DNA of 32,408 nt, taken from a marine bacterium B5-7 (GTDB taxonomy: Bacteria > Pseudomonadota > Gammaproteobacteria > Arenicellales > CAJQKF01). Both the position numbers and the translations under genes were made by a program. The stretch covers positions 1 through 32,408 of the forward strand of contig BQJD01000042.1 in the NCBI GenBank assembly GCA_021604525.1, written 5' to 3'. Under the pieces are notes generated by a model. It was not told where the DNA came from. It did no database searches and saw only the letters and a program-made list of their open reading frames with translations. Shown one piece after another: positions 2,704-32,408 of this stretch. Position 1 is the stretch's first letter. Each line of letters starts with the position of its first letter.

Positions 2704-2724
2704 TTTATCCCCCTGATGTAATGA

Positions 2725-3731: not shown

Positions 3732-3735
3732 GCGA

Positions 3736-4680: not shown

Positions 4681-4691
4681 CGGATCAATCC

Positions 4692-5931: not shown

Positions 5932-6023
5932 CTTGCCTGTTCTCCTGTGGCGTGAAACGCCTACTGTGTCTTCGTAACCTCAAAATATAAATATAAATTT
6001 ATAAAAATCTACGCGAAATATGG
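5932..6023 (-). promoter_or_regulatory. AT-rich leader between the TetR gene and ligA; probable ligA promoter region
   Basis: On the minus strand this 92-bp gap holds a very AT-rich block (about 5983-6008, repeated TTTATA/TATTT units) followed by a GC-richer leader with a small GGCG-TTTCA-CGCC hairpin at 5949-5961 and the ligA ribosome site. An AT-rich block just ahead of a seven-gene operon is a likely promoter position, but I see no clean -35/-10 pair. Read-through from the TetR gene is also possible. Confidence 0.35.
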
Positions 6024-11465: not shown

Positions 11466-12623
11466 TTGTTGCATCTCATTAAAAACGCTCATGTGTTCGC
11501 GCCATCTGATATTGGCATTAATAATGTACTGGTTGCGGCAGGCAAAATCATCTGGCTCGGCGACCACACGCCAGACATCATCGGCGTCGATATCGAGGTA
11601 ACCGATATCGAGGGCCGGCGACTGCTGCCAGGCATCATCGACGGTCATGCCCATCTGACGGGCGGTGGCGGCGAGTCCGGCTTCAAAAGCCGGATTCCTC
11701 CCGTTCCTCTGTCTCATTTTACTGCCGCAGGGGTCACCAGTGTCGTCGGTGTACTGGGTACGGACGACACCACCCGGGATACTCGCTCATTACTGGCACA
11801 GACGCATGCACTTCGTGAAGAAGGCCTGAACGCCTGGTGCCACACCGGCGGCTACCATATACCGCCTGTTACTTTTTGCGGCAGTATTCGGGACGATATC
11901 GTCTTTCTGGATCCTGTAATCGGTGTCGGCGAAGTCGCCATCAGTGATCATCGCTCGAGCCAACCGACCCTGGCCGAGATATTACGACTGGCTAGCGATG
12001 CACATGTCGCCGGATTGATCACGGGCAAAGCCGGTATTGTTCACCTGCATCTGGGTGATGGCTTGCGAGGCATGGAACTGATCCGTCAGGCGCTCGACAC
12101 GTCAGAATTGCCAGCGCGAACTTTCAATCCAACCCACATCAATCGACGTAAGGGGTTGTTTGATGAGGCGCTTGAGCTCGCAATACGTGGTTGTACCGTC
12201 GACATCACCGCATGTCCGGTTGCTGACGACGAGGATGCCTGGTCCGCGGAACAGGCGCTCGGTCTCTATCTGCAATCCTCGGCACCTCCAGACAATGTAA
12301 CGATTTCATCGGACGGTGGCGGCTGTTTGCCCAGGTTCAATGAACGCGGCGAGTTGACACACATGGATATCGGCCGACCGGCAAGTCTGGTGGCAAGCTT
12401 GAAATATCTGCTCGAAGCGGGAATGCCATTAGATCAGGCGTTACCTGCGTTCACCTGTAACGTTGCACGTATCCTGCGGCTGCATGATCGTGGACGAATC
12501 GCCCCTGACATGGCCGCCGACCTCATTATTCTCGATGAGCATCACGATATACGCGATGTCATGTTATCCGGTATCTGGCAGGTACGCGACGGCCTGCAAT
12601 GCGTGCACGGCTACTTCGAATAG
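11466..12623 (+). CDS. iadA: Isoaspartyl (beta-aspartyl) dipeptidase
   Basis: Amidohydrolase-superfamily dipeptidase that would split beta-Asp-Arg released from cyanophycin into Asp and Arg. The 385-aa length equals IadA. The metal site shows HAH (residues 61-63) in PGIIDGHAHLTGGGGESG, GVGEVAISDHRS (about 153-164), IVHLHLGDG and NPTHINRRKGLF, and the catalytic Asp in ISSDGGGCLPRF. The position of the carboxylated lysine of the E. coli enzyme appears to be Glu156 here, which would bridge the metals directly. No ATG fits: the frame starts at TTG 11466 or 11469, with AGG about 10 bases upstream. It is 71 bp ahead of cyanophycinase on the same strand. Confidence 0.9.
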   Translation: MLHLIKNAHVFAPSDIGINNVLVAAGKIIWLGDHTPDIIGVDIEVTDIEGRRLLPGIIDGHAHLTGGGGESGFKSRIPPVPLSHFTAAGVTSVVGVLGTDDTTRDTRSLLAQTHALREEGLNAWCHTGGYHIPPVTFCGSIRDDIVFLDPVIGVGEVAISDHRSSQPTLAEILRLASDAHVAGLITGKAGIVHLHLGDGLRGMELIRQALDTSELPARTFNPTHINRRKGLFDEALELAIRGCTVDITACPVADDEDAWSAEQALGLYLQSSAPPDNVTISSDGGGCLPRFNERGELTHMDIGRPASLVASLKYLLEAGMPLDQALPAFTCNVARILRLHDRGRIAPDMAADLIILDEHHDIRDVMLSGIWQVRDGLQCVHGYFE

Positions 12624-12662
12624 GGCCCGAGCGATACGCGCCTAAACAAATCAGCTCCGAAA

Positions 12663-12668
12663 TATAAT
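12663..12668 (+). promoter_or_regulatory. Candidate -10 box upstream of cphB
   Basis: A perfect TATAAT lies 26 bp upstream of the cphB start in a short AT-rich gap. The expected -35 position (around 12640-12645) reads GCCTAA, which is poor, so activator dependence or read-through from iadA remains possible. Confidence 0.35.
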
Positions 12669-12694
12669 TTTCCACAATAAAGAATTCCCATCAG

Positions 12695-13516
12695 ATGAGT
12701 CCATCCATAAATCATACAAATTCCGAACGCGGCTACATTATTCCTATCGGCGGTGCCGAAGAGAAGCTGCACGATCCCAAAATTCTTGATCGCTTTGTCG
12801 AGATCTGTGGTGGTGCTGATGCACGTATCGCCATTATTCCAACAGCATCTGAACTGGAAGATACCGGGCGCAACTACGAGAAGCTGTTTCGCAAACTCGG
12901 TATACGTCATGCACGCGTGTTGCCGTTGCTTACCCGTGAAGACTGCCAATCAAGCGAGGCGCTCGACTACATCGATGCCGCCACCGGCGTATTCATGACT
13001 GGAGGCAATCAGTTGCGGTTATCAACCACATTGGGCGGTACACCTGTTGCGCAAAGAATCCGCCGACGCAACGCCGAAGGCATGCATGTTGCCGGAACAT
13101 CGGCCGGTGCCGCCTTCATGCCGGAACACATGATCGCCGGCGGCAATGAAGGCAGTACACCGTCACCTGACATGGTGACTCTTGCTCCCGGTCTCGGCCT
13201 GACCAACAGCTTCATCATCGATCAACACTTTCGTCAGCGTGACCGACTGGGTCGTCTGCTGACAGCACTTGCCTACAACCCATTTGCAGTCGGTATCGGA
13301 CTGGATGAAGATACCGCGGCCTTTATCCGACCAGGCGATAACCTTGAGGTCGTCGGCAGCGGCGGTATCACCATCATCGACCCAAGCGAGCTTTCCTATT
13401 CCTCAATGGATCGAGCCCGCAGCGGAGATCCGGTCAGCTTGATCGGCGTGAAGCTTCACATCATGGTCGAGGGCGGCCGTTTCGAGATTGACTCGCGGGA
13501 GGCTTTTGCCGAATAG
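12695..13516 (+). CDS. cphB: Cyanophycinase
   Basis: Serine peptidase of the S51 family that cuts the polymer cyanophycin (multi-L-arginyl-poly-L-aspartate) into beta-Asp-Arg dipeptides. The 273-aa length is typical. Motifs are IPIGGAEEK (residues 16-24), FMTGGNQLRL (100-109) and the nucleophile elbow GTSAGAAFM with Ser136. SFIIDQHFRQRDRLGRLL and GIGLDEDTAAFI are cyanophycinase-specific. It sits between the dipeptidase and cyanophycin synthetase, so degradation and synthesis are encoded together. The predicted ribosome site is weak. Confidence 0.95.
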   Translation: MSPSINHTNSERGYIIPIGGAEEKLHDPKILDRFVEICGGADARIAIIPTASELEDTGRNYEKLFRKLGIRHARVLPLLTREDCQSSEALDYIDAATGVFMTGGNQLRLSTTLGGTPVAQRIRRRNAEGMHVAGTSAGAAFMPEHMIAGGNEGSTPSPDMVTLAPGLGLTNSFIIDQHFRQRDRLGRLLTALAYNPFAVGIGLDEDTAAFIRPGDNLEVVGSGGITIIDPSELSYSSMDRARSGDPVSLIGVKLHIMVEGGRFEIDSREAFAE

Positions 13517-13571
13517 TCAACGAATCAAAATATAAGCGTTCGAAATAAAGTATTAAGGAGGAGACGTCGTT

Positions 13572-16358
13572 ATGAAAATAGTCAGCACAAACGTATATGT
13601 TGGTCCCAATACGTTCGCGCACTTCCCCGTCATCCGACACGTGCTCGATCTCGGGGAACTCGAACACTGGCCAACCATGCGCCTTGGTGATGATTTCATC
13701 ACGGCATTACTCACGCATCTGCCCGGCCTTGACGAACACGGCTGCTCGTATCGTGAACCCGGCGGCTTCGTTCGCCGCATGCGTGAAGACGAAGGCACCT
13801 GGCTTGGTCACGTGATGGAACATGTTGCTATTGAACTGCAAAACGTCGCCGGTTCGCCGGTAACCTATGGTCGAACGCGTTCCATCGACGGTCAGCCGGG
13901 TTTTTATAACATGGTATTCGAATACCTCGATGCGGAAGTCGGACAGGAAGCCAGCCGACTTGCCCTGCTGCTGATCTACAGTCTGCTTCCGCAAAATTTG
14001 AAACCCTCAGATTCACCCGCTAACGATTGGGTCTTTGGCGAGGCGCGCGATACTTTCATTCGCTATGCCCAAAGTCGCGCCTTCGGTCCGAGTACCGCAT
14101 CGCTGGTGCGGGCGGCCGAGGCACGCGACATTCCCTGGATACGACTCAATGGCCAAAGCCTGGTCCAGTTCGGACATGGTCGCTACCAGCAACGCATACA
14201 GGCAACCACCACATCACGCACCAGCAACATTGCGGTAGAACTGGCATCAGATAAGGAGGAAACCAATACGATTCTTCGCGATCTCGGTCTGCCCGTTCCC
14301 AAACAGCGGATTGTCAGAACATCGAGCGACGCCAAACGCGCCGCCGAACGAATTGGCTACCCGGTGGTACTCAAACCACTGGCTGGTAACCACGGCCGTG
14401 GCGTATCGATTAATCTGAAGTTGCCGGAGGAGATCGAGGTTGCCTTCGATAAAGCGCGTGAACATGGACGCACAATTGTCGTTGAGGGTTATATCGAAGG
14501 CTTCGACCATCGCCTGCTGGTAGTGAACGGCAAGCTGGTGGCGGCTGCCAAACGCATGCCTGGACACGTGGTCGGCGATGGCATTCATACTATCGAACAA
14601 CTGGTCGACATTGTTAATCAGGACCCACGTCGTGGCGTCGGACATGAAAAAGTGCTGACCCGCCTGGAGTTCGATGATCAGGCCGAGCGATTGCTGGCAT
14701 TGAGTGGTTATGAGCGAACATCGATCCCCGCGGCTGATGAAATCGTTTTCCTCCGATCGACCGCCAATCTGTCCACCGGTGGAACGGCCATCGATGTAAC
14801 CGATGTCATTCATCCGGATAATCGCGACATGGCCATTCGATCCATTGCCGCCATCGGCCTCGACATTGGCGGCGTGGATTTCTTGACTAACGACATCTCC
14901 GAATCGTATAGAGATACCGGCGGTGGCATCTGCGAAGTTAATGCGGGACCCGGCTTTCGCATGCACGTTGCGCCTAGTGAAGGTACAGCGCGGGATGTCG
15001 CGGGACCGGTCATCGACATGCTGTTTCCAGAAAGCTTGCCGAGCCGGATTCCAATTGCCGCTGTAACCGGCACCAACGGAAAAACCACCACCTCGCGAAT
15101 GCTGGCCCATATTTTGAAAATGCGCGGCTTCATTGTCGGCCTGACTTCTACTGACGGTGTATACATAGACGGGCAACTCAGTGTGCCCGGCGACATGACC
15201 GGACCCATATCCTCGAACATTATCTTGCGCGACCCATCGGTGGACGCGGCGGTAATGGAGACCGCGCGCGGCGGCATGTTACGAAGCGGCCTTGGTTTTC
15301 GACAGTGCAACGTAGCTGCCTGCCTCAATGTGACTGCCGATCACCTCGGCCTTAAAGGCATCGATACACTTGAACAGCTTGCCGAGATAAAGCGTGTACC
15401 CCTGGAAATCGCAACAGACGCAGCCATACTCAATGCCGACGATGTGCATTGCCTGCAAATGGCTGACTATACCGATGCGAAAACGCTTTGCTATATCACC
15501 ATGAATCCGGCACATCCGCTGGTCAAGCAGCATATTCGCGCCGGCGGCCAGGCCTTTGTACTCGAACAGGGTATAAATGGTCATATGATCACCCTGTATG
15601 ACAACGAGAGTCATATCCCATTGGTATGGACCCATCTGATACCTGCTACAGCGGAAGGCCGCGCCATGCACAATGTGCAAAATGCCATGTTCGCCGCGGC
15701 CCTGGCACATAACATGGGTGTTGGCCTTGAAGACATTCGTCATGGCCTTAGAACCTTCGATGCGACTTTTTTCCAGGCGCCGGGTCGCATGAATATATTC
15801 GATGAACATCCCTTCAAGGTCATCCTCGACTATGCCCACAACCCGGCTGCGGTGAAGGCGATGTGTCAACTGGTCGAGCGGTTCGAGCCGGAAGGCCGAC
15901 GCATTGTTGTTTTATCCGCACCAGGTGATCGACGCGATGAAGACATCGAGGAAATTGCCCGGCTGGCATCGACCCACTTCGATCACTTTATCTGTCGTTG
16001 CGACGATCATCGAAGAGGTCGGGGAGAAGATGAGGTCGCGGTCATCCTGAAAAATACCTTGATGGCGTGCGGCGTAACGGAAGATCGCATTCAGGTCATC
16101 CCGGATGAGCAGCAGTCAATTCAAGCGGCGCTCGAGATGGCGCAACCGACAGATTTATTGCTGGTGCTGGCTGACGCCATCAAGCGTAGCTGGAAGCAGA
16201 TCATCTACTTCAATTCCGGCACTCAGACTGACGATCCTGTCGGTAAGTCGGCGGCTTCGGTCAAACTGCCGGACGGTCTCGACTTCGACCTGGCTGATGA
16301 TCTCGAAATCATCAGCGACGAACGTGGCGTTCGTATTGCCCGCGAAGCAGGCGATTGA
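13572..16358 (+). CDS. cphA: Cyanophycin synthetase
   Basis: A 928-aa CphA1-type enzyme that uses ATP to add Asp to the poly-Asp backbone and Arg to its side chains, making the nitrogen reserve cyanophycin. Domain order: N-terminal domain (about 1-160, with GTWLGHVMEHVAIELQ), ATP-grasp domain (about 214-485, glycine loop KPLAGNHGRGVS at 268-279, CEVNAGPGFRMHVAP near 454-468) and C-terminal Mur-ligase domain (P-loop GTNGKTTT at 500-507, METARGGMLRSGLG, DYAHNPAAV at 753-761). The full length and intact motifs indicate an active enzyme. A very strong ribosome site, AAGGAGGAG (13555-13563), lies eight bases before the ATG. The stop is eight bases from the next gene's ATG. Confidence 0.97.
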   Translation: MKIVSTNVYVGPNTFAHFPVIRHVLDLGELEHWPTMRLGDDFITALLTHLPGLDEHGCSYREPGGFVRRMREDEGTWLGHVMEHVAIELQNVAGSPVTYGRTRSIDGQPGFYNMVFEYLDAEVGQEASRLALLLIYSLLPQNLKPSDSPANDWVFGEARDTFIRYAQSRAFGPSTASLVRAAEARDIPWIRLNGQSLVQFGHGRYQQRIQATTTSRTSNIAVELASDKEETNTILRDLGLPVPKQRIVRTSSDAKRAAERIGYPVVLKPLAGNHGRGVSINLKLPEEIEVAFDKAREHGRTIVVEGYIEGFDHRLLVVNGKLVAAAKRMPGHVVGDGIHTIEQLVDIVNQDPRRGVGHEKVLTRLEFDDQAERLLALSGYERTSIPAADEIVFLRSTANLSTGGTAIDVTDVIHPDNRDMAIRSIAAIGLDIGGVDFLTNDISESYRDTGGGICEVNAGPGFRMHVAPSEGTARDVAGPVIDMLFPESLPSRIPIAAVTGTNGKTTTSRMLAHILKMRGFIVGLTSTDGVYIDGQLSVPGDMTGPISSNIILRDPSVDAAVMETARGGMLRSGLGFRQCNVAACLNVTADHLGLKGIDTLEQLAEIKRVPLEIATDAAILNADDVHCLQMADYTDAKTLCYITMNPAHPLVKQHIRAGGQAFVLEQGINGHMITLYDNESHIPLVWTHLIPATAEGRAMHNVQNAMFAAALAHNMGVGLEDIRHGLRTFDATFFQAPGRMNIFDEHPFKVILDYAHNPAAVKAMCQLVERFEPEGRRIVVLSAPGDRRDEDIEEIARLASTHFDHFICRCDDHRRGRGEDEVAVILKNTLMACGVTEDRIQVIPDEQQSIQAALEMAQPTDLLLVLADAIKRSWKQIIYFNSGTQTDDPVGKSAASVKLPDGLDFDLADDLEIISDERGVRIAREAGD

Positions 16359-16366
16359 GTGACAAA

Positions 16367-18043
16367 ATGGAATTGCTCGATGCCCGTCGGCTGACAGGAC
16401 CGAACCTGTTACTCAATAGCGCTGGCACAATCATCGATGTTTGCTGTACGACGGCGGAAGCCGACCGGTTGATCCCGTTGTGGGAGTCACATATTTCGGC
16501 CATCTTGCAACGACTTGGCTGGCAATTCGAGACACTCGCATACAGGCAATTCAAGGCGGGCGTCAGTCTTGCATTCAGCGCACCGATTGATGCGTTGTAT
16601 GCGGCAACAAGTATCAACGAATGGGCATTTGCCAGCTGTGAAGCAAAGATCAACAGAACTGCTGCGCCGGATTTCGATCAGCAGTTCGATATGATCATCA
16701 ACGCGATCAAAGAGGAGGCTAATGAACCGCTACTGGCTCTGGAAGCCGCAGCCAAACTGCACAATGTCGAGCTGCTCTGGGATGACGACCATGTATCCAT
16801 CGGCCTCGGCAGCGGCTCAACGACCTGGCCCTGTCGTGAAATTCCCGATGTAAGCACCATCAATTGGAGCGATTACCATAACGTACCTGTCGGCATGGTC
16901 ACCGGTACAAACGGTAAAACCACCACAGTGCGTATGGCACGTCAAATCATGCGTGCCGCCAACCTCAATGTCGGCATCAGCTCCACTGAATGGATTGCAG
17001 TCAACGACCGAATCATCGATCGTGGTGACTGGTCAGGACCCGGCGGTGCACGTCAGGCACTTCGTCAACAAGAAGTTGACGTCGGCATACTTGAAACAGC
17101 TCGAGGCGGGTTGCTCAGACGCGGACTCGGCGTTGCCACGGTGAATGCTGCGGTAATAACCAATGTCTCTGAAGATCACCTTGGCGACTTCGCATCACAA
17201 AGCATTGACGAACTTCTCGATATCAAATGGGTTGTCTCACGTGCCGTGAGTACCGGTGGCGTGTTAATTTTAAATGCCGATGATGAACGACTGGTTTACA
17301 AATCCGTCAACTACAGCGGCGCAATCGCATGGTTCAGTCTTGATGCTAACAACCCGATTATCGCAGAGCATACGGGTGCAGGCGGCCTGGCCTATGTACT
17401 CCAGGAGGATAGACTTGTTCGCATCAAAGGTAATGAGTATCAGAATTTATGTAACAGTATTGATATACCGATAGTTCTCGGTGGCGCTGCTCGTCACAAC
17501 ATCGCCAATGCACTGGCTGCCGCTGCGTTGACGGAACAACTTGGCGCAGCACCTGACGATATCCGCACCGGACTCATCAGTATGTCAAGAGACGACAACC
17601 CGGGTCGCGCCAATCATTATGTCGTCAACGATGCCACCGTCATCGTTGACTTCGCCCATAATCCGGCAGCCATGCGTGCCGTTCTGGACATGTCCCGGGC
17701 AGTACCGGCCAAACGACGACTACTCTCCTTCGGCCAGGCCGGCGACCGGCCCGATGACCTCATTAGGGATCTCGCCCGGCATGCCTGGTCGATTGGCCTC
17801 GATGCTGTCAACATATCTGAGCTCGCTCATTATCATCGAGGCCGAAACCATGGTGAAGTGTACACAGTCATTCGCGATGAACTGTTACGCTGTGGCGCCA
17901 GGGAGGATCAAATACAATACTTCGAAGAGGAGACAGATGCCCTTGATGCAGCACTGCATTGGGCTGAACCAGGCGATATGATCATCATGCTGGCGCTCGA
18001 CAGCAGCACGCAGATTCAGCAAACACTACGTGCCATGGAGTAA
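16367..18043 (+). CDS. Mur-ligase-like protein linked to cyanophycin synthetase
   Basis: A 558-aa protein starting MELLDARRLTGPNLLLNSAG. The N-terminal ~170 residues do not resemble the CphA N-domain or ATP-grasp domain. The rest is a Mur-ligase module: P-loop VTGTNGKTTTVRMA (about 178-191), LETARGGLLRRGLGVA, ITNVSEDHLGDF and DFAHNPAAMRAV. It closely parallels the C-terminal half of the adjacent CphA. Similar stand-alone genes follow cphA in many proteobacteria. Candidate roles are an assisting amide ligase, chain priming, or re-ligation of beta-Asp-Arg as in CphA2; none is proven. ATG 16367 is preferred to TTG 16355, which overlaps the cphA stop. Confidence 0.86.
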   Translation: MELLDARRLTGPNLLLNSAGTIIDVCCTTAEADRLIPLWESHISAILQRLGWQFETLAYRQFKAGVSLAFSAPIDALYAATSINEWAFASCEAKINRTAAPDFDQQFDMIINAIKEEANEPLLALEAAAKLHNVELLWDDDHVSIGLGSGSTTWPCREIPDVSTINWSDYHNVPVGMVTGTNGKTTTVRMARQIMRAANLNVGISSTEWIAVNDRIIDRGDWSGPGGARQALRQQEVDVGILETARGGLLRRGLGVATVNAAVITNVSEDHLGDFASQSIDELLDIKWVVSRAVSTGGVLILNADDERLVYKSVNYSGAIAWFSLDANNPIIAEHTGAGGLAYVLQEDRLVRIKGNEYQNLCNSIDIPIVLGGAARHNIANALAAAALTEQLGAAPDDIRTGLISMSRDDNPGRANHYVVNDATVIVDFAHNPAAMRAVLDMSRAVPAKRRLLSFGQAGDRPDDLIRDLARHAWSIGLDAVNISELAHYHRGRNHGEVYTVIRDELLRCGAREDQIQYFEEETDALDAALHWAEPGDMIIMLALDSSTQIQQTLRAME

Positions 18044-18078: not shown

Positions 18079-20127
18079 ATGAAATCTTCTACATCAACTC
18101 AAGATGACAACCGTTCAACCAGCGCATCCGGAAACAGGCCCTTCCGGCGACTTGGCGATGCCTATCATTTAAATATAGCCAACGATAAGGATCTCGAAGC
18201 TGTTCTGACACTGGACGAGGCTCACTGGGTTGCGACAACGGCACCTACCAACACTATCAATACAGATAGTGTTTTTTTGAATCTGGTGGATTCGGATTGT
18301 GATGGCAGGCTTCGCGCCGAAGAGGTCAAGGATGCCATTCGCTTCCTGCTTCGATATCACAAAAAGCCGGAAGATATCCGTGACGGTAATCTGACACTCG
18401 ATATTGACGCCATCAATCCATGCGATGAATCCGGGCAACAGATAAGGGAGTCAGCGAACAAGGTTCTGGCCAGGCTGTCAGATAACGACAAGCTTATTCC
18501 TCTTGCACAACTACGAAAGATCAAAAACGAAGTCCTTGACGGCGGTCTTGACCAGGCAGGCATTGTTCTTCCTGAAGCGACAACAGATAAAGATATCCAT
18601 GGATTCATTAACGACCTTGTGAAGTCCGTAGGCGGCAAACAACATCCCCAAGGCAAACATGGCGCCGATACCGAGACACTCAATACATTCATGGATGAGT
18701 GTCAGCGTTTTCTCACCTGGCGGCTTGAAGCTGGCGCATTGAATGAAGAAGGCCCAAGCAAGATTTGGCCACTCGGCACCAAAACCGCAAGCCTATATCC
18801 GACATTCGAGTTATTACATAAGAAGTTCATACAATATTTCCTGCTTTGCGATCTGAAAAGAATAAATCCGGAATTGCTGGCAAGTGCAATGAATACACCT
18901 GAGGGAAATATCGCCAGCAACCTGATGGATAGTGAACATGCCGAGGCGTATTTATCCAACGCCCCACTGGCTCAACTAAATGACGAAGGCGTACTCGATC
19001 TGACCGGCGAGATGAACCCATACTTCAAAAAGAATATCGAAACGTTTTTAAGTGAGATTGCCCAGCCACTTCTGAGCAGTGCCATAACGCATCTTGATAA
19101 GCATACTTTTCAATCATTGCTGACCATGTTCAATCCGTATCTCGACTGGCTTGATAGAAAACCTCAAGTATCGGTTGAATGTGTTGATTTCGATACCATG
19201 GCGCGATATGTCAACGACAGCAAGTATCGACAACAACTTGAACTGCTTATTGCAGAGAGTCATCGAACCGCGTTTGTTCTCGAAAATCTCAAGGAACTTG
19301 AAAGGCTGCTGCTCTACCAAGGGCACTTGCTTGGCCTGGTAAACAGTTTTGTGAGTTTTCCGCATCTGTACGATCCAAACAGCCGTGCGCTGTTTGAAAT
19401 GGGAACACTCATTATGGATGGCCGGCACTTTACGCTTGCCGTTACCGTAAATGACAGGAAACGACATATCGAAGTCGTAAAGTCGAGCAATATCTTTATG
19501 ATGTATCTCGAACTTTACGGACCCGGCCACACACTGGAATATGAAGTCGCAGTGCCGATTACTTCCGGTAATCATGGCAATATTCATCTTGGCAAATGGG
19601 GAATTTTCAACGACATCCACGGGCGCGAGCTGCATGCACAGATAGTCGATATCGTCGAGAATCCGATCTCTATCGGTGAGGCCATGATCGACCCGTTCGT
19701 GCGCCTGGGTCGATCCTTTATTAACCGCCTTGAAGAATTTTCCTCTAAAGCCGAGCAACAACTTTTCAAAAGTGGCGATGGTGACAAGGACAAAAAGAAG
19801 GATGGATCCAGCGGAGGATTGCTGGCTGGAGGCGGCATTGCAATAGCGGCGATCGGCTCGTCCTTCGCATTCATTACCGAAACGCTTGCTGGTTTAAGTT
19901 TGAAGGTCATCTTGATAGCCTTGGGTATTACCGCAGCACTGATCGCAATACCCGCAGCCATAGCCACGTATTATCGTCTGTCGCGACGGGACTTAAGCAC
20001 AATACTGGAAGGATCAGGATGGGGGCTGAATGCGAGAATGCGTCTCACTCGGGAACAGGCCAACACCTTTACCCTGCGCCCGCCCTACCACCTTGAGCAG
20101 GAAACTAATCCTGAATCACCGAAATGA
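18079..20127 (+). CDS. Uncharacterised membrane protein with an EF-hand-like loop
   Basis: A 682-aa protein of no family I can name. After a polar, Ser-rich N-terminus there is an EF-hand-like calcium loop DSDCDGRLRAEEV (residues 71-83) flanked by predicted helices. A long, mostly helical soluble region follows (about 90-560) with a beta-rich part near 430-530 (EMGTLIMDGRHFTLAVTV, VPITSGNHGNIHLGKWGIF). A charged KSGDGDKDKKKDG linker (about 564-576) precedes two hydrophobic segments (about 581-603 and 606-630), and the tail carries GSGWGLNARMRLTREQ (645-660). It begins 35 bp after the Mur-ligase-like gene on the same strand, so it is probably part of the cyanophycin operon. A role in granule or membrane organisation is possible but unproven. 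Confidence 0.82.
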   Translation: MKSSTSTQDDNRSTSASGNRPFRRLGDAYHLNIANDKDLEAVLTLDEAHWVATTAPTNTINTDSVFLNLVDSDCDGRLRAEEVKDAIRFLLRYHKKPEDIRDGNLTLDIDAINPCDESGQQIRESANKVLARLSDNDKLIPLAQLRKIKNEVLDGGLDQAGIVLPEATTDKDIHGFINDLVKSVGGKQHPQGKHGADTETLNTFMDECQRFLTWRLEAGALNEEGPSKIWPLGTKTASLYPTFELLHKKFIQYFLLCDLKRINPELLASAMNTPEGNIASNLMDSEHAEAYLSNAPLAQLNDEGVLDLTGEMNPYFKKNIETFLSEIAQPLLSSAITHLDKHTFQSLLTMFNPYLDWLDRKPQVSVECVDFDTMARYVNDSKYRQQLELLIAESHRTAFVLENLKELERLLLYQGHLLGLVNSFVSFPHLYDPNSRALFEMGTLIMDGRHFTLAVTVNDRKRHIEVVKSSNIFMMYLELYGPGHTLEYEVAVPITSGNHGNIHLGKWGIFNDIHGRELHAQIVDIVENPISIGEAMIDPFVRLGRSFINRLEEFSSKAEQQLFKSGDGDKDKKKDGSSGGLLAGGGIAIAAIGSSFAFITETLAGLSLKVILIALGITAALIAIPAAIATYYRLSRRDLSTILEGSGWGLNARMRLTREQANTFTLRPPYHLEQETNPESPK

Positions 20128-23929: not shown

Positions 23930-25459
23930 TTGCGATTTCAATATCAACATAATAGCTCCCTGCCTCGCCTTGCCTGGGGTGCAGTATTAAATAGCGATGG
24001 CATTCTCGTACACCATGGTTCCGGTGTTGAAACACATCCTGATTTTTTTGTAGAAGGTGCATGGGACGGACCATTCAAGGATGGTGGATTCGAGCAAGCC
24101 GTCACATTTACCGGAACGGGTGCCCGCATCCATGGCGACATGATCCGATTTTCTTCGCCAAGCCACAATCTCGAACGTTGCTATTCACTCAGTAAGGGAC
24201 ACTCGCTCTATTTGTCAAACTCACTGGCTTTCGTCATGACGATGGCAGATGAGAGGTTAAAACCGGATTACCCTTTTTACTATTTCGATTTTATTCGTTG
24301 CTACCGTACCGGGCTTCGCCAGAGAAACCAGGGAATCAAAACACTCGACAATCTGAAAGTGACTTTTCACGATTGCCATAATATCGATATTCGCAACAGT
24401 AAAATTATTCAGCAACAGATGAGAGACTTCGGTCGTGCACCAATGTCCTTTGATGAATATCATAAGATCATGCTCGATACGACCCGACATGTTTTCAGCA
24501 ATGCTGCGGACCCAGCCCGACATGTTCGGTATAAGCCCCTTGCATCCATCTCGACAGGCTATGATTCTCCGGCAACTTCAGTCCTGTCCGCCGACGCCGG
24601 TTGCGAAGATGCGTTTACATTCAGACGAAGCAATGCCAATGACAGTTCGATCTATCAGGATGACAACGGCCAGTTCATCGCCAGGCAGCTTGGCCTGAAT
24701 TGTGAAGTGCATGATCGGATCAACCTGTGCGATGCCAGGCCGGATCTTTTGAAACTCCATTTTCAAAACCCCTTCGGCTCAATCGTCAGCTCAATGGATC
24801 AGGCAAGTGATCTGTTGTTGAATCGCATATTCGTAACTGGCCGCCACGGTGAGCACTTCTGGAGTCTTGATCCGGCTCGCTCCCTGCCTTGGTACCAGGA
24901 ACCCACAGCACGCAAAACCCTGGTTCAGAATACGCTGGAATTTCGGCTCGATCGGGGTTATATCGACTTTCATTTACCCTACACCTGTGGTGTGTTCGCG
25001 CCTTCTCTGCTCAAGATCAGCCGTTCTGATGAAATGGCTGCGTTTAGAATCGGAGGCAATTATGATCGACCCATACCGAGACGAATAGTGGAACAAGCCG
25101 GCGTTTCCAGAGAACAATTCGGACTGGAGAAAAAGGGAGGCGCCGAAGACATTCCAGCGCTATGCACATTCTCCGAAGAGTCGAAGACAGACTTCAATGC
25201 GTTCTATGAAACCTATGTGCCGGACTCAATTATAAATACACAGCGCCATAGTAAGCGAGGGCGCTTCGGATACTACGAACACGGCTTTTCCCATGGGTTA
25301 GATCGCTGGCTCAGGACACAGTACGGTTTACGCACTATCAGCGAATATGTACTGGGATTTCGAAATCACCAACGACGCTATTCACCGTATTTGTATGCAT
25401 TTCACTGGGGCTTCGAGTTCGTCGCGGAACGCTATCGTCAGGTTTTGAGGAAAACGTAA
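23930..25459 (+). CDS. Divergent asparagine-synthetase-like ATP-pyrophosphatase
   Basis: A 509-aa protein with asparagine-synthetase architecture but no Cys at the N-terminus. The N-terminal half has GATase-II-like traces (FVEGAWDGPF near 41, VTFTGTGARIHGD, CYSLSKGHSLYLSNSLAFV). The C-terminal half has a PP-loop-like STGYDS (208-213), TGRHGEHFW (303-311) and YDRPIPRRIVEQAGVSREQF (378-397), close to the Asn-synthetase C-terminus. It therefore probably makes an acyl-adenylate, but without glutamine as nitrogen donor. No ATG fits; the start is TTG 23930 with GAAG eight bases upstream. The pairing with a cytidylyltransferase suggests a surface-polymer or small-molecule role. Confidence 0.75.
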   Translation: MRFQYQHNSSLPRLAWGAVLNSDGILVHHGSGVETHPDFFVEGAWDGPFKDGGFEQAVTFTGTGARIHGDMIRFSSPSHNLERCYSLSKGHSLYLSNSLAFVMTMADERLKPDYPFYYFDFIRCYRTGLRQRNQGIKTLDNLKVTFHDCHNIDIRNSKIIQQQMRDFGRAPMSFDEYHKIMLDTTRHVFSNAADPARHVRYKPLASISTGYDSPATSVLSADAGCEDAFTFRRSNANDSSIYQDDNGQFIARQLGLNCEVHDRINLCDARPDLLKLHFQNPFGSIVSSMDQASDLLLNRIFVTGRHGEHFWSLDPARSLPWYQEPTARKTLVQNTLEFRLDRGYIDFHLPYTCGVFAPSLLKISRSDEMAAFRIGGNYDRPIPRRIVEQAGVSREQFGLEKKGGAEDIPALCTFSEESKTDFNAFYETYVPDSIINTQRHSKRGRFGYYEHGFSHGLDRWLRTQYGLRTISEYVLGFRNHQRRYSPYLYAFHWGFEFVAERYRQVLRKT

Positions 25460-25934: not shown

Positions 25935-25970
25935 TGAATATACCGTCAGCAATCAATCAGTAGAGTATCG

Positions 25971-25990
25971 GTAACGTGATTCACGGTTAC
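25971..25990. promoter_or_regulatory. Imperfect palindrome upstream of the cupin gene
   Basis: GTAACGTGAT-TCACGGTTAC has arms GTAACGTGA and TCACGGTTAC that pair with one extra base. It is centred about 46 bp upstream of the cupin ATG, a position where an operator would overlap the promoter. Function is inferred. Confidence 0.3.
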
Positions 25991-26386
25991 TAAATATTAA
26001 ACACAGCATTCCATTCATGACGAATGATAAACCAACCTCGCTATCATGCAACACATTACATTGAACTATAGTCCTGCAGGAATGAAAACCTTTCCAAATG
26101 GATCAACATGAAAATTATATGCATTTTTTCAGTTCTCCTTCGCTGCAATGACAACTTTTGTTGCACGACAACATTCTCATTCTGGAACGGCCTGTACCTG
26201 TAAGTTGCAATGTCCAACATCAGTTGGCTGCATTGACTTTATGCATACTTGATTAACCGTTATACCCTTTTCTATCCAGCGCCAAATATTTATCAACATG
26301 ACGCAAAGTCTGCTACGTGTAATACTCAAAGAGTATTTAATGGCAACATATTAGATCCAACCGTGTAGTAGCAATTCGAGGAAATC
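25991..26386. other. Long divergent intergenic region (cupin / decarboxylase)
   Basis: About 400 AT-rich bases with no recognisable coding frame and no tRNA. It should hold the decarboxylase promoter. TTGACT at 26233 and TTATAC at 26260 resemble promoter boxes but are spaced 21 bases apart, too far for an ordinary sigma-70 site. The decarboxylase ribosome site GAGGAA (26378-26383) is good. Confidence 0.45.
26321..26337. promoter_or_regulatory. Perfect inverted repeat in decarboxylase leader
   Basis: AATACTC-AAA-GAGTATT, seven-base arms with a three-base centre, ends 49 bp before the decarboxylase ATG. Its short spacing suits a dimeric regulator site or a small mRNA hairpin; it is too AT-rich and lacks a T-run for a terminator. 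Confidence 0.35.
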
Positions 26387-29245
26387 ATGCCTGACAATTC
26401 CCCTCAGATACTCAGAAAATCACTGGATTTTTACCACAGTGCGAGTCAATTGCGTTTCGATACATGGCATCGACTCGAACACTATACATCGCAATTAACC
26501 TCTCGTTCAGCGAGGAAGGCGGATGTTGCCCGCTTCAGAAAAGCAGCGCACGACGCGATGACAATGCTTGAAACCATCGAGTATTACACTGCTTTTCCAT
26601 CGCGTGAAGATTTTCGAATTCTCTGGCAGGTATTCGAACGGGAGGACTACACCATCTTTGCACGGATGGTCGAGCAACTGGTTCGCTCATTAACCAACCA
26701 TTCGTACCGACGCAGCACATTTTCATCGATCAGGAAAATTGCTGAAGGCGAGGAACTCGATGTAGAGGAGGAAGGTGATCCGCTGGATCTCGATGGCCCA
26801 CTTGCCAAGCCGTATTTCGAAGTGCTGTTCGTCGAAGAGATGACCATTGATGAGGAGAACAGGCTCCGATCCGGCTTAAGGAGCATGCGGCGGGCTGAGG
26901 ATCGTTTCATATACGAACTGATATCTGTACCCACATTTGAAGATGCCCTGATCGCCATTTTGTTTAATTACAATATTCAGGCATGCGTTATTCGTTACGG
27001 ATTTCCCTTTCGCTCAAAGAACCAACTCGACATACTGCAACGCTATCTCGCCGGATTAAGTGATTCCGATGCTGAAGAACAGCCTGACACCGATCGTGGA
27101 CCGCTGCTCGGTGCCATGATGTCCGAACTTAGACCGGAACTTGATCTCTACCTTGTCACTGATGTTGCGGTCGAAGAAATCGCAGCAACCATAACTGAAA
27201 AGTTTCGACGCATTTTCTATCGCCAGGAAGATTATCTTGAGCTTCATCTGGCGATACTGCGTGGTATAGAAAGTCGTTATCAAACTCCGTTTTTTACTGC
27301 GCTCAAAGACTATAGCCGTAAACCGACCGGCGTATTTCATGCCATGCCGATCTCACGCGGCAAATCGCTGACCAAGTCGAAATGGATCCGTGACATGATG
27401 CAGTTCTATGGAATGAACGTGTTTCTAGCGGAAACCTCAGCGACATCGGGCGGTCTCGATTCGCTTCTTCAGCCACACGGACCACTAAAAAAAGCCCAGG
27501 AGCTTGCTGCACGCGCATTCGGGGCACGTCGCACCTATTTCTCAACAAACGGCACATCCACTTCCAACAAGATTGTTGTTCAGGCATTGATCAAGCCCGG
27601 TGATATTGTTCTTATAGATCGAGACTGCCATAAGTCGCATCATTACGGTCTGGTGCTGGCGGGTGCCATGGTGTCCTACCTCGATTCCTATCCACTCGAC
27701 GATTACTCCATGTACGGAGCGGTGCCGCTCACCGACATCAAGCGTCGGTTACTTGAGTATAAAAGCGCCGGACTGCTGGATCGGGTACGGATGCTGTTAC
27801 TGACCAACTGTACCTTTGACGGCGTGGTCTATAACGTCGAACAGGTTATGGAGGAATGCCTCGCCATCAAACCGGATCTTATCTTCCTCTGGGACGAGGC
27901 ATGGTTTGCGTTTGCCAGCTTTCATCCAACCTATCGCAAACGTACCGCCATGTATTGCGCACGTACACTGGAAGCACGTTACCGTAGCATTTCATACCAG
28001 GAGACCTATAAACCTTTCCGTAAGCAGCTCGATAAGCTTGAAGCAAAAAATGATACCGAAGGCTTGATTCATACACGGCTGATGCCCGATCCCGAACTTG
28101 TCAAAATCCGGGTTTATGCAACACAGTCGACACATAAGACACTGACATCCCTGCGTCAGGGATCGATGATCCACATATATGATCAGCAGTTTCGACATAA
28201 GGTCGATGAGTCTTTTTCCGAGGCCTTCATGACTCACACATCCACCTCGCCCAACTACCAGATTCTGGCATCGCTGGACATCGGGCGGCGTCAGGTCGAA
28301 CTCGAAGGATATGAGCTCGTGCAAAAGCAGCTCGATCTTGCCATGGCGTTGCGCGAACGGATCGCCACCCACGAGTTGTTGAGCAAGTATTTCAGCGTAC
28401 TGGTGGCAAGCGACATGGTTCCGGAAGAATTTCGCCCATCAGGCATCGATTCTTACTTCGACCCCGTAACAGGTTGGAGAAACATGAGAATGGAGGAGGC
28501 CTGGGCGAGTGATCACTTTGTTGTCGATCCTACCCGCATCACTTTGTATATTGGCAAAACCGGTGTCGATGGCGATACATTCAAAAATCGTTATCTAATG
28601 GATAAATACGGCATCCAGATCAACAAGACATCACGTAACACGGTGCTGTTCATGACCAATATTGGCACCACCCGCAGTTCCGTAGCCTACCTGATCGGCG
28701 TGCTGGTAAAGATAGCCAACGAACTTGACCGTGAATGGAACGACAGTAGCCCGCGTGAACGAAAACTTTTCGACAAACGCGTCCATTCATTAACGACCGA
28801 TCTTCCACCGCTACCGGACTTCAGCCGCTTTCATCCTGTGTTCAGCACGGGTCGGGAGTCCGGCACACCGGATGGCGATATCCGCACTGCTTACTTCCTC
28901 GCCTATGACGAGCGCTTTTGTGACTACCTGCGCATCGACGAGGATCTGATCGACCAGGAACTCGCCGCCGGTCGCGACGTGGTATCGGCGGGTTTCGTCA
29001 TTCCTTATCCGCCGGGCTTCCCGATCCTCGTTCCCGGCCAAATATTGAGCCAGGAGATATTGACTTTCATGCGCGCGCTGGACGTTAAGGAGATTCATGG
29101 TTATCGACAGGAACTTGGGCTGCGTGTTTTTCTCGATGAAGCACTTGCTTCCGTACGCCAGACACCAATCCCTGTCACTGTCGCGGATATTGCAGCGGAT
29201 ATTGCACCCGACCCTGGCTCCCATGAAGAGCCTGCGGAAGATTGA
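26387..29245 (+). CDS. Orn/Lys/Arg decarboxylase-family PLP enzyme (long form)
   Basis: A 952-aa fold-type I PLP enzyme related to bacterial ornithine/lysine/arginine decarboxylases (about 710-755 aa), with an N-terminal region of about 300 residues that I cannot assign. The PLP core begins near 310: AETSATSGGLDSLLQPHGPL, FSTNGTSTSNKIVVQ (385-399), DRDCHKSHHYGLVLAGA (411-427), LLTNCTFDGVVYNV, FLWDEAWFAF (Asp503 binds the pyridine nitrogen) and ATQSTHKTLTSLRQGSMIHI with the Schiff-base Lys584. The C-terminal block has IPYPPGFPILVPGQ, as in Arg/Lys decarboxylases. Arginine is the likeliest substrate because cyanophycin breakdown would supply it, but Lys or Orn cannot be excluded. It is first in a cassette with an ATP-grasp and a C45 enzyme. 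Confidence 0.88.
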   Translation: MPDNSPQILRKSLDFYHSASQLRFDTWHRLEHYTSQLTSRSARKADVARFRKAAHDAMTMLETIEYYTAFPSREDFRILWQVFEREDYTIFARMVEQLVRSLTNHSYRRSTFSSIRKIAEGEELDVEEEGDPLDLDGPLAKPYFEVLFVEEMTIDEENRLRSGLRSMRRAEDRFIYELISVPTFEDALIAILFNYNIQACVIRYGFPFRSKNQLDILQRYLAGLSDSDAEEQPDTDRGPLLGAMMSELRPELDLYLVTDVAVEEIAATITEKFRRIFYRQEDYLELHLAILRGIESRYQTPFFTALKDYSRKPTGVFHAMPISRGKSLTKSKWIRDMMQFYGMNVFLAETSATSGGLDSLLQPHGPLKKAQELAARAFGARRTYFSTNGTSTSNKIVVQALIKPGDIVLIDRDCHKSHHYGLVLAGAMVSYLDSYPLDDYSMYGAVPLTDIKRRLLEYKSAGLLDRVRMLLLTNCTFDGVVYNVEQVMEECLAIKPDLIFLWDEAWFAFASFHPTYRKRTAMYCARTLEARYRSISYQETYKPFRKQLDKLEAKNDTEGLIHTRLMPDPELVKIRVYATQSTHKTLTSLRQGSMIHIYDQQFRHKVDESFSEAFMTHTSTSPNYQILASLDIGRRQVELEGYELVQKQLDLAMALRERIATHELLSKYFSVLVASDMVPEEFRPSGIDSYFDPVTGWRNMRMEEAWASDHFVVDPTRITLYIGKTGVDGDTFKNRYLMDKYGIQINKTSRNTVLFMTNIGTTRSSVAYLIGVLVKIANELDREWNDSSPRERKLFDKRVHSLTTDLPPLPDFSRFHPVFSTGRESGTPDGDIRTAYFLAYDERFCDYLRIDEDLIDQELAAGRDVVSAGFVIPYPPGFPILVPGQILSQEILTFMRALDVKEIHGYRQELGLRVFLDEALASVRQTPIPVTVADIAADIAPDPGSHEEPAED

Positions 29246-29393
29246 TTACATTACCAGTTAGTATTGGAACAGCACTGTGATGGAGTTCATGAAGGTCTTC
29301 AACACCCGTCGTTACATACAATGTTTGCGCAATTTTTTTAAAGAACCTGATAAAGAACCAATTAATACACGAGAAAAGTCGAGGAGTAGCCCC

Positions 29394-30851
29394 GTGACCA
29401 AGCTCAAAAATATATCTGACATTCGTCGTTATTTTCATCGCAACGAAACGCCGATCTTCTTTTTTAGTGCAACGAATTTCAATCTCCTGGGTATCAGTGA
29501 GTGGGTACGCAATTTCCATTACATCAACTATATCGATTGCTTCGACGGCAGGCATCCGAGCGTGTTTGTTCCGTCTGAAGCGCCGCACCGCGAATTCGAA
29601 GGCATCGAGGATATCAACAACTACTTGTTACAACACAAGGAGGTAATCGACTTCATAGAAAAACGCGGCCCAGGTGGCAAAGCTGTATTTTTGATGTTCG
29701 ATGAAGAAACTGAATCTCTTTGCGCGGAACTTGGACTCGACATCTGGTTTCCATCGGCAGAATTGCGTAGCCGGGTGGACAACAAAATCGAGACTGTCCG
29801 CATAGGCGACAAGGCCGGTGTTCCAAGCGTGCCAAATGTGCTTGCAAAAGTAGATAGCTATGAGACATTGCGCAATGTCTCAGGCGACCTTGGCGAGCAT
29901 CTTGTTGTGCAGTCCGCCTTCGGCGACTCGGGTAAAACCACCTGGTTTATATCCGACGAAGCGGATTATAAAAAGTATGCAAAGGAAATCGAACGGGAAC
30001 CTGAAATCAAGATCATGAAGCGTGTCAATGTTCGCGGTTCCGCAATCGAGGCATGCACCACCAAACAAGGTACTATTGTTGGTCCCTTGATGACCGAGTT
30101 GGTCGGCTTCAAGGAATTGACCCCATACAAGGGTGGCTGGTGCGGTAACGAGATATTTGCCGACGCCTTCACCCAGGATGTTCGCGACAAGGCGCGCGAA
30201 TACACCTACAAATTTGGCGAAGCATTGCGTGAATCCGGTTATCGCGGCTATTTTGAACTGGATTTTCTCATCGATCAGGACAATGGTGAGCTTTATCTCG
30301 GCGAACTCAATCCGCGTGTGACCGGCGCGAGTACAATGACCAACAGCGCGGCATTTGCACACGCCGATGCGCCCTTGTTTCTGTTTCACCTGCTTGAATT
30401 TTCCGACATCGAGTTCGATCTTGATGTCGAAGAGTTGAATAACCGCTGGGCAGACTCCGAGAACATTGATAGCTGGAGCCAGTTGGTCATCAAGTTTTGC
30501 GACGATCGTGTCGAATGGGTCAGCGCAGCGCCTGAATCCGGAATATGGCGCCTTGAAGACGATGGTCGTATGGTCTACCGGCGGTTCGACTATCACCGGC
30601 GTGGAATTGAAACGGAAAAAGAAGGCTTTTACCTGCGAATCGTCGGAGAAAACGATTATTTTTACAAAGGTGCCGATCTCGGCATATTAATTACCCGTGG
30701 ACGCTTGATGAATGACGACTTCACACTCAATGAAAGGGCGTTACGCTGGATACGCGATATTCGCAGTGCCTACGCTTCGCAATCAATTGAAAATGTCAAC
30801 CAGGACAATGTTCCGATGAGCCTTGAAGCAGGCGCATTTAAAATTCTTTAG
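29394..30851 (+). CDS. ATP-grasp ligase (biotin-carboxylase-like)
   Basis: A 485-aa ATP-grasp enzyme, a fold that makes acyl-phosphates and joins them to an amine or thiol. The glycine-rich loop is VQSAFGDSGKTTW (172-184). The metal-binding end of the domain is ELDFLIDQDNGELYLGELNP (288-307) with RVTGAS, where Glu and Asn bind Mg-ATP. The N-terminal FFFSATNFNLLGISEW and YIDCFDGRHPSVFVP are conserved in a group often labelled biotin carboxylase, but no biotin-carrier domain is present. I prefer GTG 29394, which has GAGGAG seven bases upstream; a start at 29277 or 29280 would add 38-39 residues with a weaker ribosome site. The C45 gene starts 11 bp after the stop. Confidence 0.85.
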   Translation: MTKLKNISDIRRYFHRNETPIFFFSATNFNLLGISEWVRNFHYINYIDCFDGRHPSVFVPSEAPHREFEGIEDINNYLLQHKEVIDFIEKRGPGGKAVFLMFDEETESLCAELGLDIWFPSAELRSRVDNKIETVRIGDKAGVPSVPNVLAKVDSYETLRNVSGDLGEHLVVQSAFGDSGKTTWFISDEADYKKYAKEIEREPEIKIMKRVNVRGSAIEACTTKQGTIVGPLMTELVGFKELTPYKGGWCGNEIFADAFTQDVRDKAREYTYKFGEALRESGYRGYFELDFLIDQDNGELYLGELNPRVTGASTMTNSAAFAHADAPLFLFHLLEFSDIEFDLDVEELNNRWADSENIDSWSQLVIKFCDDRVEWVSAAPESGIWRLEDDGRMVYRRFDYHRRGIETEKEGFYLRIVGENDYFYKGADLGILITRGRLMNDDFTLNERALRWIRDIRSAYASQSIENVNQDNVPMSLEAGAFKIL

Positions 30852-30862
30852 CCGGAACCACG

Positions 30863-31900
30863 ATGCAGTTACGTTTTCAATCCGTATACGAGCCACGCCC
30901 TGACGGCAACTGGCTGAAACTTCTTTCAAGGCATTGGAGTGCCTACGAGAAGTGGTTCCTGTCCGAAGGTGATGCGGCACGACCCAGTTACCTAAAGACG
31001 CGCCAGATGCTACGCAAGCACATGCCCGAATTGATGCCGACATATGAGCGCCTTGTCGATCTCGCGGGCGGTTCTGATATGACCGCACGATTTCTCGGCC
31101 ATTATTGTCCGCCACCATATATCTCGGGCTGCTCTCAAGCCATCTGGCCGGATCCAGATCAGGCACTGCTGATTCGAAACTATGACTATAGTCCGAGCCT
31201 GTGCGAAGGTACTTTGTTATACAGTTGCTGGAACGGTCGTAAGGTCATTGCCATGAGCGACTGCTTGTGGGGCGTGCTCGACGGCATGAACGATGCGGGA
31301 CTTGCAGTTTCGCTTTCGTTCGGTGGGCGACGGGTTGTCGGTGAAGGCTTTGGAGTACCTCTCATACTGCGTTACATACTTGAATTTTGCGAAACGGTTG
31401 AAGAAGCCACCCGTGCATTGGGCCGAATCCCGACGCACATGTCATACAATGTCACCGTACTCGACAAAAGTAATCAATATCGAACCGCATTCGTTTCCCC
31501 CGACCGACGCGTGGTCATTCGTCAGCTACCGGTAGCCACCAACCATCAGGGTCGCGTCGAGTGGCAAACACACGCCGAGGCAACGGCTTCCACCGAGCGT
31601 GAAAGTTTCCTGATCAATCGTCTGGCAGACAGCGAGGAAACTGAAGGCAATTTCATCGACTCATTCCTGCAACCACCCTTATATTCAACCGCCTACAAGC
31701 GTGGCTTCGGTACGTTATACACAGCCTGGTATCGGCCTCAAGAAGGTGAGATGGCGCTCATGTGGCCGGGATCGTCACTGGTTCAAAACTTCACGAATTT
31801 TACCGAAGAAAGCCGTACGATTCGCTATGACGGTATTACGGAAGAAGTCGATGAAGTGCAGGCAAGCCAACACGAAAGGGCTTCTCTGATGGCGTTGTAA
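30863..31900 (+). CDS. C45-type Ntn hydrolase / acyltransferase
   Basis: A 345-aa protein of the acyl-CoA:6-aminopenicillanate acyltransferase (C45) type. These enzymes cleave themselves before a Cys, which becomes the N-terminal nucleophile, then hydrolyse or transfer amide-linked acyl groups. The site is YISGCSQAIW with Cys90, followed by ALLIRNYDYSPSLCEG, the typical strand after the nucleophile. SDCLWGVLDGMNDAGLAVSLSFGG is the second conserved block (WG..DGMNxxGLxxS), and THMSYNVTVLDKS is the third. No signal peptide is seen, so it should be cytosolic. It is last in the decarboxylase-ATP-grasp-C45 cassette. Confidence 0.85.
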   Translation: MQLRFQSVYEPRPDGNWLKLLSRHWSAYEKWFLSEGDAARPSYLKTRQMLRKHMPELMPTYERLVDLAGGSDMTARFLGHYCPPPYISGCSQAIWPDPDQALLIRNYDYSPSLCEGTLLYSCWNGRKVIAMSDCLWGVLDGMNDAGLAVSLSFGGRRVVGEGFGVPLILRYILEFCETVEEATRALGRIPTHMSYNVTVLDKSNQYRTAFVSPDRRVVIRQLPVATNHQGRVEWQTHAEATASTERESFLINRLADSEETEGNFIDSFLQPPLYSTAYKRGFGTLYTAWYRPQEGEMALMWPGSSLVQNFTNFTEESRTIRYDGITEEVDEVQASQHERASLMAL

Positions 31901-32174: not shown

Positions 32175-32408
32175 TTAAACGGTTTGGACTCGATTTACGT
32201 AATGATCGGATGCAAACATCACGCCCATCGCGTCTTTAAACAGCCGCAGAATCCAGGCGCAAAAAGGCCGGGCCCGCAGCCAGGCCAGCACCTTGCGTAG
32301 ATTGTGACCACTGGCCACCAGTAACACATTCATCGCATCACCATCCGTACCCTTGAGATAGTTGCGGCCAAGATGTCCATCGTTCTTCATGTGGCCAATC
32401 TCAGGTTC
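32175..32408 (-). CDS. IS5-family-like transposase, C-terminal fragment (off right edge)
   Basis: The minus-strand frame is open from the window edge to TAA at 32175, giving 77 residues, so this is the 3' end of a longer gene that starts beyond the window. EIGHMKNDGHLGRNYLKGTDG followed by DAMNVLLVASGHNLRKVLAWL is the conserved C-terminal signature of IS5-group DDE transposases (the catalytic Glu helix with LxR and the GHNLR motif). The internal Met at 32390 is not the start. Whether the element is intact cannot be judged. It marks insertion of a mobile element just downstream of the C45 gene. Confidence 0.85.
   Translation of the reverse strand, partial: EPEIGHMKNDGHLGRNYLKGTDGDAMNVLLVASGHNLRKVLAWLRARPFCAWILRLFKDAMGVMFASDHYVNRVQTV

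Follow-up and report, generated by a model that had tools for sequence, protein, structure and literature searches.

A Conserved Decarboxylase, ATP-Grasp, and C45 Gene Cassette That May Form the Core of a Bacterial Catabolic Module Converging on GABA

Introduction

The described systems that come closest to the subject of this work, a three-gene cassette on the plus strand of a 32,408-nucleotide contig (BQJD01000042.1; this whole stretch is called the window hereafter) of the marine gammaproteobacterium B5-7, are the Puu pathway of Escherichia coli (PuuA-PuuB-PuuC-PuuD-PuuE) and the assembly of the butirosin side chain. The cassette encodes a long pyridoxal 5'-phosphate (PLP)-dependent decarboxylase of the ornithine/lysine/arginine (OKR) type (DC), an ATP-grasp protein (BC), and an autoproteolytic acyltransferase/hydrolase of the N-terminal nucleophile (Ntn) type (C45). 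Puu chemistry relies on ATP-dependent amide protection and later amide hydrolysis, the ligase being of the glutamine-synthetase type and the hydrolase of the class I glutamine amidotransferase type; amide protection and hydrolysis, an aldehyde dehydrogenase (ALDH), and a γ-aminobutyric acid (GABA) transaminase would be shared with the cassette and its recurrent neighbors, whereas the Puu cluster contains an FAD oxidase and neither a decarboxylase nor a nitrilase. In the butirosin side-chain route, which uses an acyl carrier protein, BtrJ performs ATP-grasp ligation and BtrH acyl transfer, and PLP-dependent decarboxylation of bound glutamate by BtrK completes the resemblance to the cassette; however, BtrK, unlike DC, is placed among the alanine-racemase-fold enzymes, and the butirosin system serves antibiotic biosynthesis, whereas the cassette is read here as part of GABA catabolism.

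DC itself is about 40% identical to Rv2531c of Mycobacterium tuberculosis (PDB 9n0n, 9n0o, and 9n0p) and has the same fold, including the N-terminal extension; according to a 2026 review, the activity of Rv2531c was left unclarified by its structure study (PMC12910592). The parts of the cassette are now annotated with placeholders ('biotin carboxylase' and 'probable amino acid decarboxylase' among them), and searches of an open-access library aimed at the gene set found no description of it, in keeping with the first-pass annotation of the window, which knew of no named pathway for the trio. The cassette is a genuine gene set, and its DC-BC-C45 trio forms the core of a widely conserved, apparently undescribed bacterial operon. 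On balance, the trio is best read as the core of one catabolic module converging on GABA, whose full form is SSADH-GabT-NIT-DC-BC-C45, comprising in addition a succinate-semialdehyde dehydrogenase (SSADH), a GABA transaminase (GabT), and a nitrilase-superfamily amidase (NIT, PF00795).

Conservation and Composition of the Cassette

The three open reading frames, all intact and in tandem on the plus strand, run from DC (26387..29245, 952 aa, PLP lysine K584) through BC (29277..30851, 524 aa from a GTG codon) to C45 (30863..31900, 345 aa, nucleophile C90), with gaps of 31 bases between DC and the listed BC start and 11 bases between BC and C45. The first-pass annotation had described three consecutive genes with intact catalytic motifs, and these motifs are invariant: Lys584, which aligns with AdiA K386, CadA K367, and SpeF K355, in 40/40 DC sequences, the E343/N345 pair in 37/37 BC sequences, and Cys90 in 24/24 C45 sequences.

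An even sample of 398 genomes of the phylum was searched with the NCBIfam model NF005096, which BC matches. BC was present in 11 of them (E 2e-153 or better), and the 196 other genomes with a match (E 5e-14 or weaker at best) hold ordinary biotin-carboxylase-type enzymes. DC and C45 were encoded near BC in 11/11 of these genomes, in line with the earlier proposal that the trio is one functional unit; rare co-occurrence, which would speak against that proposal, was not seen. Within the same 398 genomes, the DC profile (E 1e-100) identified 17 with DC, namely the 11 with BC and 6 of the 387 without it, an association with a Fisher p of ~1e-17, uncorrected for shared ancestry. A scan of GTDB returned at least 576 BC relatives; BC was also found in 9/150 genomes of a planctomycete's class, 10/369 of the window's class, 7/21 close relatives of the window genome, and all three searched genomes of its genus, and halophiles, roseobacters, Planctomycetes, and Gemmatimonadota are among the groups that have the cassette.

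Removal of 6 duplicates from 113 regions left 107 distinct loci, 77 of which have at least 6 kb on both sides of BC; the GTDB loci among them are the best 80 of the 576 and are biased towards close relatives. Partners were counted by tblastn at a coverage of at least 40%, and neighboring genes were clustered with antisense artefacts dropped and some cluster representatives read. C45 accompanies BC most consistently (105/107 loci), and NIT is the commonest fourth member (87/107); among the 77 well-flanked loci, C45, DC, and NIT occur in 75, 71, and 71, respectively. DC, BC, and C45 are found together in 94 loci, of which 52 have the order NIT-DC-BC-C45, 22 have NIT-BC-C45-DC, and 20 have others; the trio does recur elsewhere, but not in the same order throughout. 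That trio is also the core of the unit rather than the whole, as NIT (or an amidase-signature enzyme, AMID, in its place), GabT, and SSADH had been missed. A record titled Oceanobacillus (L077) contains a proteobacterial-type DC-BC-C45 set (60, 65, and 52% identity to that of the window), for which mislabeling or transfer is possible.

GABA Genes and the Substrate of the Decarboxylase

The full set SSADH-GabT-NIT-DC-BC-C45 stands in one order and on one strand in eight loci of several phyla (L175, L176, L177, and L181 from the planctomycete's class; L065 from Planctomycetota; L062 and L106 from Gemmatimonadetes; and L191 from the window's own order), and a ninth locus, L040, has all six genes rearranged; within the window's genus, genome G903 has DC-BC-C45-NIT-GabT. 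A class III aminotransferase at least 50% identical to the cassette GabT is encoded within the fetched stretch of 29/107 loci. Four of six tested aminotransferases pass the TIGR00700 GABA-transaminase cut-off of 506.65 (L115, 598.0; L046, 585.6; L040, 577.3; L098, 535.0), and that of L106 falls short at 498.6. SSADH matches occur in 32/107 loci, 20 of them being Halomonas-type DoeC-like enzymes of 46-49% identity; of four ALDHs compared with the TIGR01780 SSADH model (cut-off 646.35), that of L040 scores above it (684.8) and those of L080 (608.2), L106 (358.1), and L069 (250.1) below. GadB was not found above its cut-off in any of 13 cassette genomes. Glutamate-related genes also adjoin the unit: a bacterial NAD-glutamate dehydrogenase (PF05088, 873 bits) ends 22 bases 5' of DC in L046, relatives lie upstream of DC in L045 and L183, and solute-binding proteins in L066 and L075 are nearest to the glutamate/aspartate type, below cut-off. 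Less specific context is provided by fused tripartite ATP-independent periplasmic (TRAP) permeases near the unit in 16/107 loci and by an oligopeptide-type ATP-binding cassette (ABC) transporter in four roseobacter loci. In L069, directly 5' of NIT-DC-BC-C45, positions 2234-6220 (+) hold a glutamine-synthetase-like protein (30% identity to PuuA), an ALDH, and what by eye looks like an iron-type alcohol dehydrogenase.

These neighbors suggest a module that would break a nitrogen compound down to GABA and then to succinate. DC would remove the α-carboxylate of an amino acid, BC would use ATP to link an intermediate through an amide (or N-carboxyl) bond, C45 and NIT (or AMID) would hydrolyze amides, and GabT and SSADH would carry out the final steps. 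The first-pass annotation had proposed instead that the trio makes and matures an agmatine-like conjugate; conjugate biosynthesis was set aside in view of the recurrent GabT and SSADH neighbors, which point to catabolism through GABA. The agmatine idea is weak, though still alive.

The family to which DC belongs is clear from several comparisons. It scores 262.9 bits against PF01276 (OKR_DC_1, cut-off 27), its profile matches the three Rv2531c structures over nearly their full length at 1122 bits, and its AlphaFold model (mean predicted local distance difference test score, pLDDT, 79.7) superposes on 9n0o with a template modeling (TM) score of 0.92 by target length. Claims about the substrate pocket are based on alignment with E. 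coli AdiA, CadA, and SpeF. In 40/40 members, Asn746 replaces the glutamate of CadA E526/SpeF E532, which we take to bind the distal amine of the substrate; R324, R590, and R750 are likewise invariant, R590 occupying the position of a serine in the E. coli enzymes. The PGH(Q/M)GG loop of AdiA, CadA, and SpeF is absent, and P-(I/L/V)-S-R-(G/A)-(K/A)-S is present instead in 40/40, with R324 taking the place of a glycine in the loop. These motifs are common to five proteins from genomes that have DC without BC, and Rv2531c retains the equivalents of N746, R324, and R590, not of R750; the accessible part of one source yielded no substrate-side residues (PMC7866039). An Asp-Al_Ex exchanger, confirmed by family search, adjoins DC in five of the six genomes that have DC alone, four of the five being of one genus, the neighbors in the sixth (L137) being unread; in L136, an aspartate 4-decarboxylase (TIGR03801, 779.9; cut-off 435.1) also lies beside DC. 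These neighbors suggest that DC acts on an acidic substrate and releases a zwitterionic product. The expectation of an ornithine, lysine, or arginine substrate in the first-pass annotation is doubtful in light of the lost glutamate and the exchanger pairing, but for arginine it keeps some footing in a DEAW motif shared with AdiA, in ureohydrolases at 3/107 loci, and in a cluster of Thiofilum described below. Glutamate or its γ-amide, which would yield GABA or GABA amide, is tentatively placed first among the candidate substrates, short of an even chance, and arginine-derived amines come second as a rather unlikely choice. In one reading that would accommodate both the glutamate and the arginine signs, DC would supply GABA where it is present, an arginine route would do so in Thiofilum, and NIT-BC-C45 would act at the level of GABA. 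A more specific scheme, which we consider unlikely as a whole, has glutamate (or another amino acid) decarboxylated with its side chain held as an ATP-made amide, after which C45 and the nitrilase or amidase-signature partner release GABA. In the Osedax symbiont Rs1 (L053/L146), what is left of DC upstream of BC is a C-terminal part of 62% identity, and a stop codon is reported within this match; DC is apparently decaying there while BC-C45-NIT persist.

Several observations weigh against a glutamate-to-GABA module. GabT accompanies the unit in just 29 of the 107 loci, GabT and SSADH are common genes, and the transaminase flanking the Halomonas-type locus L080 is of the PRK07482 type and DoeD-like rather than a GabT. 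The lack of GadB is tempered by its rarity, as only 3/14 controls have it above cut-off, and by a sub-cut-off GadB match in G903. Two hydrolases for a single ligase are unexplained, and the divergent pair L041/L042 lacks both NIT and AMID, neither genome having NIT. On the side of the decarboxylase, the R750 position is Ile in Rv2531c, the DEAW motif is common to DC and AdiA, and AdiA also lacks the glutamate (T571). In Thiofilum (L052), where no DC was found, NIT-BC-C45 leads a same-strand, operon-like run of arginine type, comprising an amino-acid-transporter-like gene, an agmatinase-family ureohydrolase (TIGR01230, 208.2; cut-off 174.3), a 5-guanidino-2-oxopentanoate decarboxylase (769.9; cut-off 500), an ALDH nearest to an aminobutyraldehyde-dehydrogenase model (436, below the cut-off of 615), and a D-amino-acid dehydrogenase (447.3; cut-off 383); such a run is presumably an arginine-to-GABA route of a known type. 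In L054 and L185, relatives of this ureohydrolase that likewise exceed the TIGR01230 cut-off are encoded at a distance of 0.9 to 1.2 kb from NIT, bringing agmatinase-family ureohydrolases near BC to 3/107 loci.

A serious rival, although we judge it rather unlikely, is an arginine, agmatine, or putrescine route with a protecting group similar to that of Puu, in which DC would give agmatine (or putrescine), BC would γ-glutamylate the diamine, whose free end would then be oxidized by a transaminase and an ALDH, C45 would take off the glutamyl group to leave GABA, and NIT would cleave a ureido or amide intermediate. The arginine-type cluster headed by NIT-BC-C45 in Thiofilum, the ureohydrolase relatives near NIT in L054 and L185, and the shared DEAW motif are all consistent with this route, as is a weak match of NIT to N-carbamoylputrescine amidase (66-78 bits, cut-off 410); nevertheless, tblastn with the E. 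coli proteins found PuuB and PuuD in 0/107 loci and PuuA in 1/107 (L069, 30% identity), ureohydrolases are confined to the three loci named and a 2-oxo-acid decarboxylase to 1/107, DC has lost the glutamate and gained arginines, and the partners of DC in the DC-only genomes are Asp-Al_Ex exchangers, not basic amino-acid antiporters.

The ATP-Grasp Protein and the Amide Hydrolases

BC scores 768.6 bits against NF005096 (cut-off 684), a family named 'biotin carboxylase', and also matches PF02786; its model (pLDDT 87.0) has biotin carboxylase and PurK as nearest folds, with TM scores (by query length) of 0.46-0.57 in the 50 matches listed. The ATP-grasp fold and E/N/R residues of E. coli AccC align with BC, but AccC E296, presumably the catalytic glutamate and bicarbonate base, corresponds to A351 (hhalign, probability 75.6), and an AccB-like carrier protein was encoded in 0/107 loci (tblastn with E. 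coli AccB, E 1e-8, 40% coverage). Because the E296 position is alanine and no AccB-like gene lies nearby, the NF005096 name is probably wrong in function for BC, and a true biotin carboxylase was rejected; BC may be an amide ligase or an N-carboxylase. In the latter case, BC would act as a PurK-like, biotin-independent N-carboxylase on a guanidino or amino group through carboxyphosphate chemistry, and C45 with NIT or AMID would hydrolyze the N-carboxyl or ureido products, amounting to a new way of stripping guanidino groups. The nearest folds of BC agree with such an enzyme, and amidase-signature enzymes include allophanate hydrolase; yet the alanine at position 351 argues against it, and a fold match at the level of BC cannot separate carboxylases from amide ligases, so that this explanation appears improbable.

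C45 scores 180.5 bits against NF040521 (C45_proenzyme, cut-off 85) and 120.9 against PF03417 (AAT); the residue before Cys90, where autoproteolytic cleavage is predicted, is glycine in most, though not all, of the 24 sequences, and no PDB relative was found at E 0.01. For NIT, no NCBIfam equivalog match came near its cut-off. AMID is linked to the unit in place of NIT in L048, L049, L050, L188, and L192, and searches of these five genomes found no NIT; two of the five proteins are confirmed by PF01425, and the other three were recognized by 51-55% identity in tblastn, a match in L083 (31%, 8.5 kb from BC) being excluded from the count. As AMID looks like a non-orthologous displacement of NIT, the step carried out by either is probably amide hydrolysis. 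NIT is encoded elsewhere in the genome in two genomes of the planctomycete's class with an isolated BC. A second, divergent NIT-C45-BC copy (L186, G890:C26; BC 42% identity) lies without DC on a 5.2-kb contig, and the same genome has a full cassette as well.

That the genes are neighbors only through shared regulation or selfish clustering and have unrelated substrates is very improbable: DC stands without BC in 6/17 DC genomes, and BC-C45 is found in L052 (Thiofilum), L066 (Plasticicumulans), L090 and L122 (Aquitalea), and L120, whose genomes have no DC of this family, but the linkage is kept across phyla and several gene orders, and DC is kept in 11/11 BC genomes of the even sample. Two further candidates were rejected. 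Many Halomonas-type loci have NIT-BC-C45-DC flanked by doeX-like and doeC-like genes (by resemblance and Pfam domains) of the ectoine-degradation (doe) cluster; membership of the doe pathway as a general reading is countered by the adjacency of doeX and doeC in H. elongata (PMC3187862) and by the lack of doe-like neighbors in most non-Halomonas loci. A lysine-type Dav route, with NIT as DavA, had no supporting NCBIfam match.

The Cassette in Its Genomic Setting

Upstream of DC, an intergenic stretch (25960..26386, +) is presumed from sequence reading to hold the promoter region, and a ribosome-binding-like GAGGAAA precedes the DC ATG at 26387. The true BC start is probably the GTG at 29394..29396 (+, V40), since the 39 residues before it are not conserved among homologs and are modeled with low pLDDT, and GAGGAG lies upstream. 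NIT is absent from the cassette contig; the window genome has a NIT of 77% identity on contig C24, beside hydrogenase-looking genes, and a GabT relative (70%) on another contig, C4. At the contig end, an open frame at 32175-32408 (-) looks by eye like a transposase fragment and is perhaps the reason why the contig stops after C45.

An apparently complete cyanophycin gene set lies at 11466-18043 (+), with a β-aspartyl peptidase (TIGR01975, 395 bits), a cyanophycinase (TIGR02069, 263), a cyanophycin synthetase (TIGR02068, 1118), and another Mur-ligase protein, a short one whose match to cyanophycin synthetase (349 bits, below cut-off) is limited to the C-terminal half. A link to the cassette was rejected and the proximity treated as chance because these genes are nearly absent from the 107 loci (tblastn: cyanophycinase and β-aspartyl peptidase 0/107; cyanophycin synthetase 1/107, 27%). 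Two plus-strand proteins at 18079-20127 (682 aa) and 23930-25459 (509 aa), which flank a TctCBA transporter, have no Pfam match at E 0.001 (best 0.18). Finally, an aromatic-degradation-type cluster at 977-5582 (-) contains a LigB-type extradiol dioxygenase, two amidohydrolases, an RraA-like aldolase, and a GFO/IDH/MocA oxidoreductase.

Conclusion

Cultured, named strains with intact clusters (e.g., Halomonas and Sulfitobacter) make the cassette directly testable. Settling its function would name four enzyme families together and correct a probably misleading NCBIfam label, and it would suggest a substrate for the structurally solved, functionally orphan Rv2531c. If the pathway through an ATP-made amide is true, it would give all the orphan decarboxylases of the Rv2531c family a substrate class outside ornithine, lysine, and arginine.

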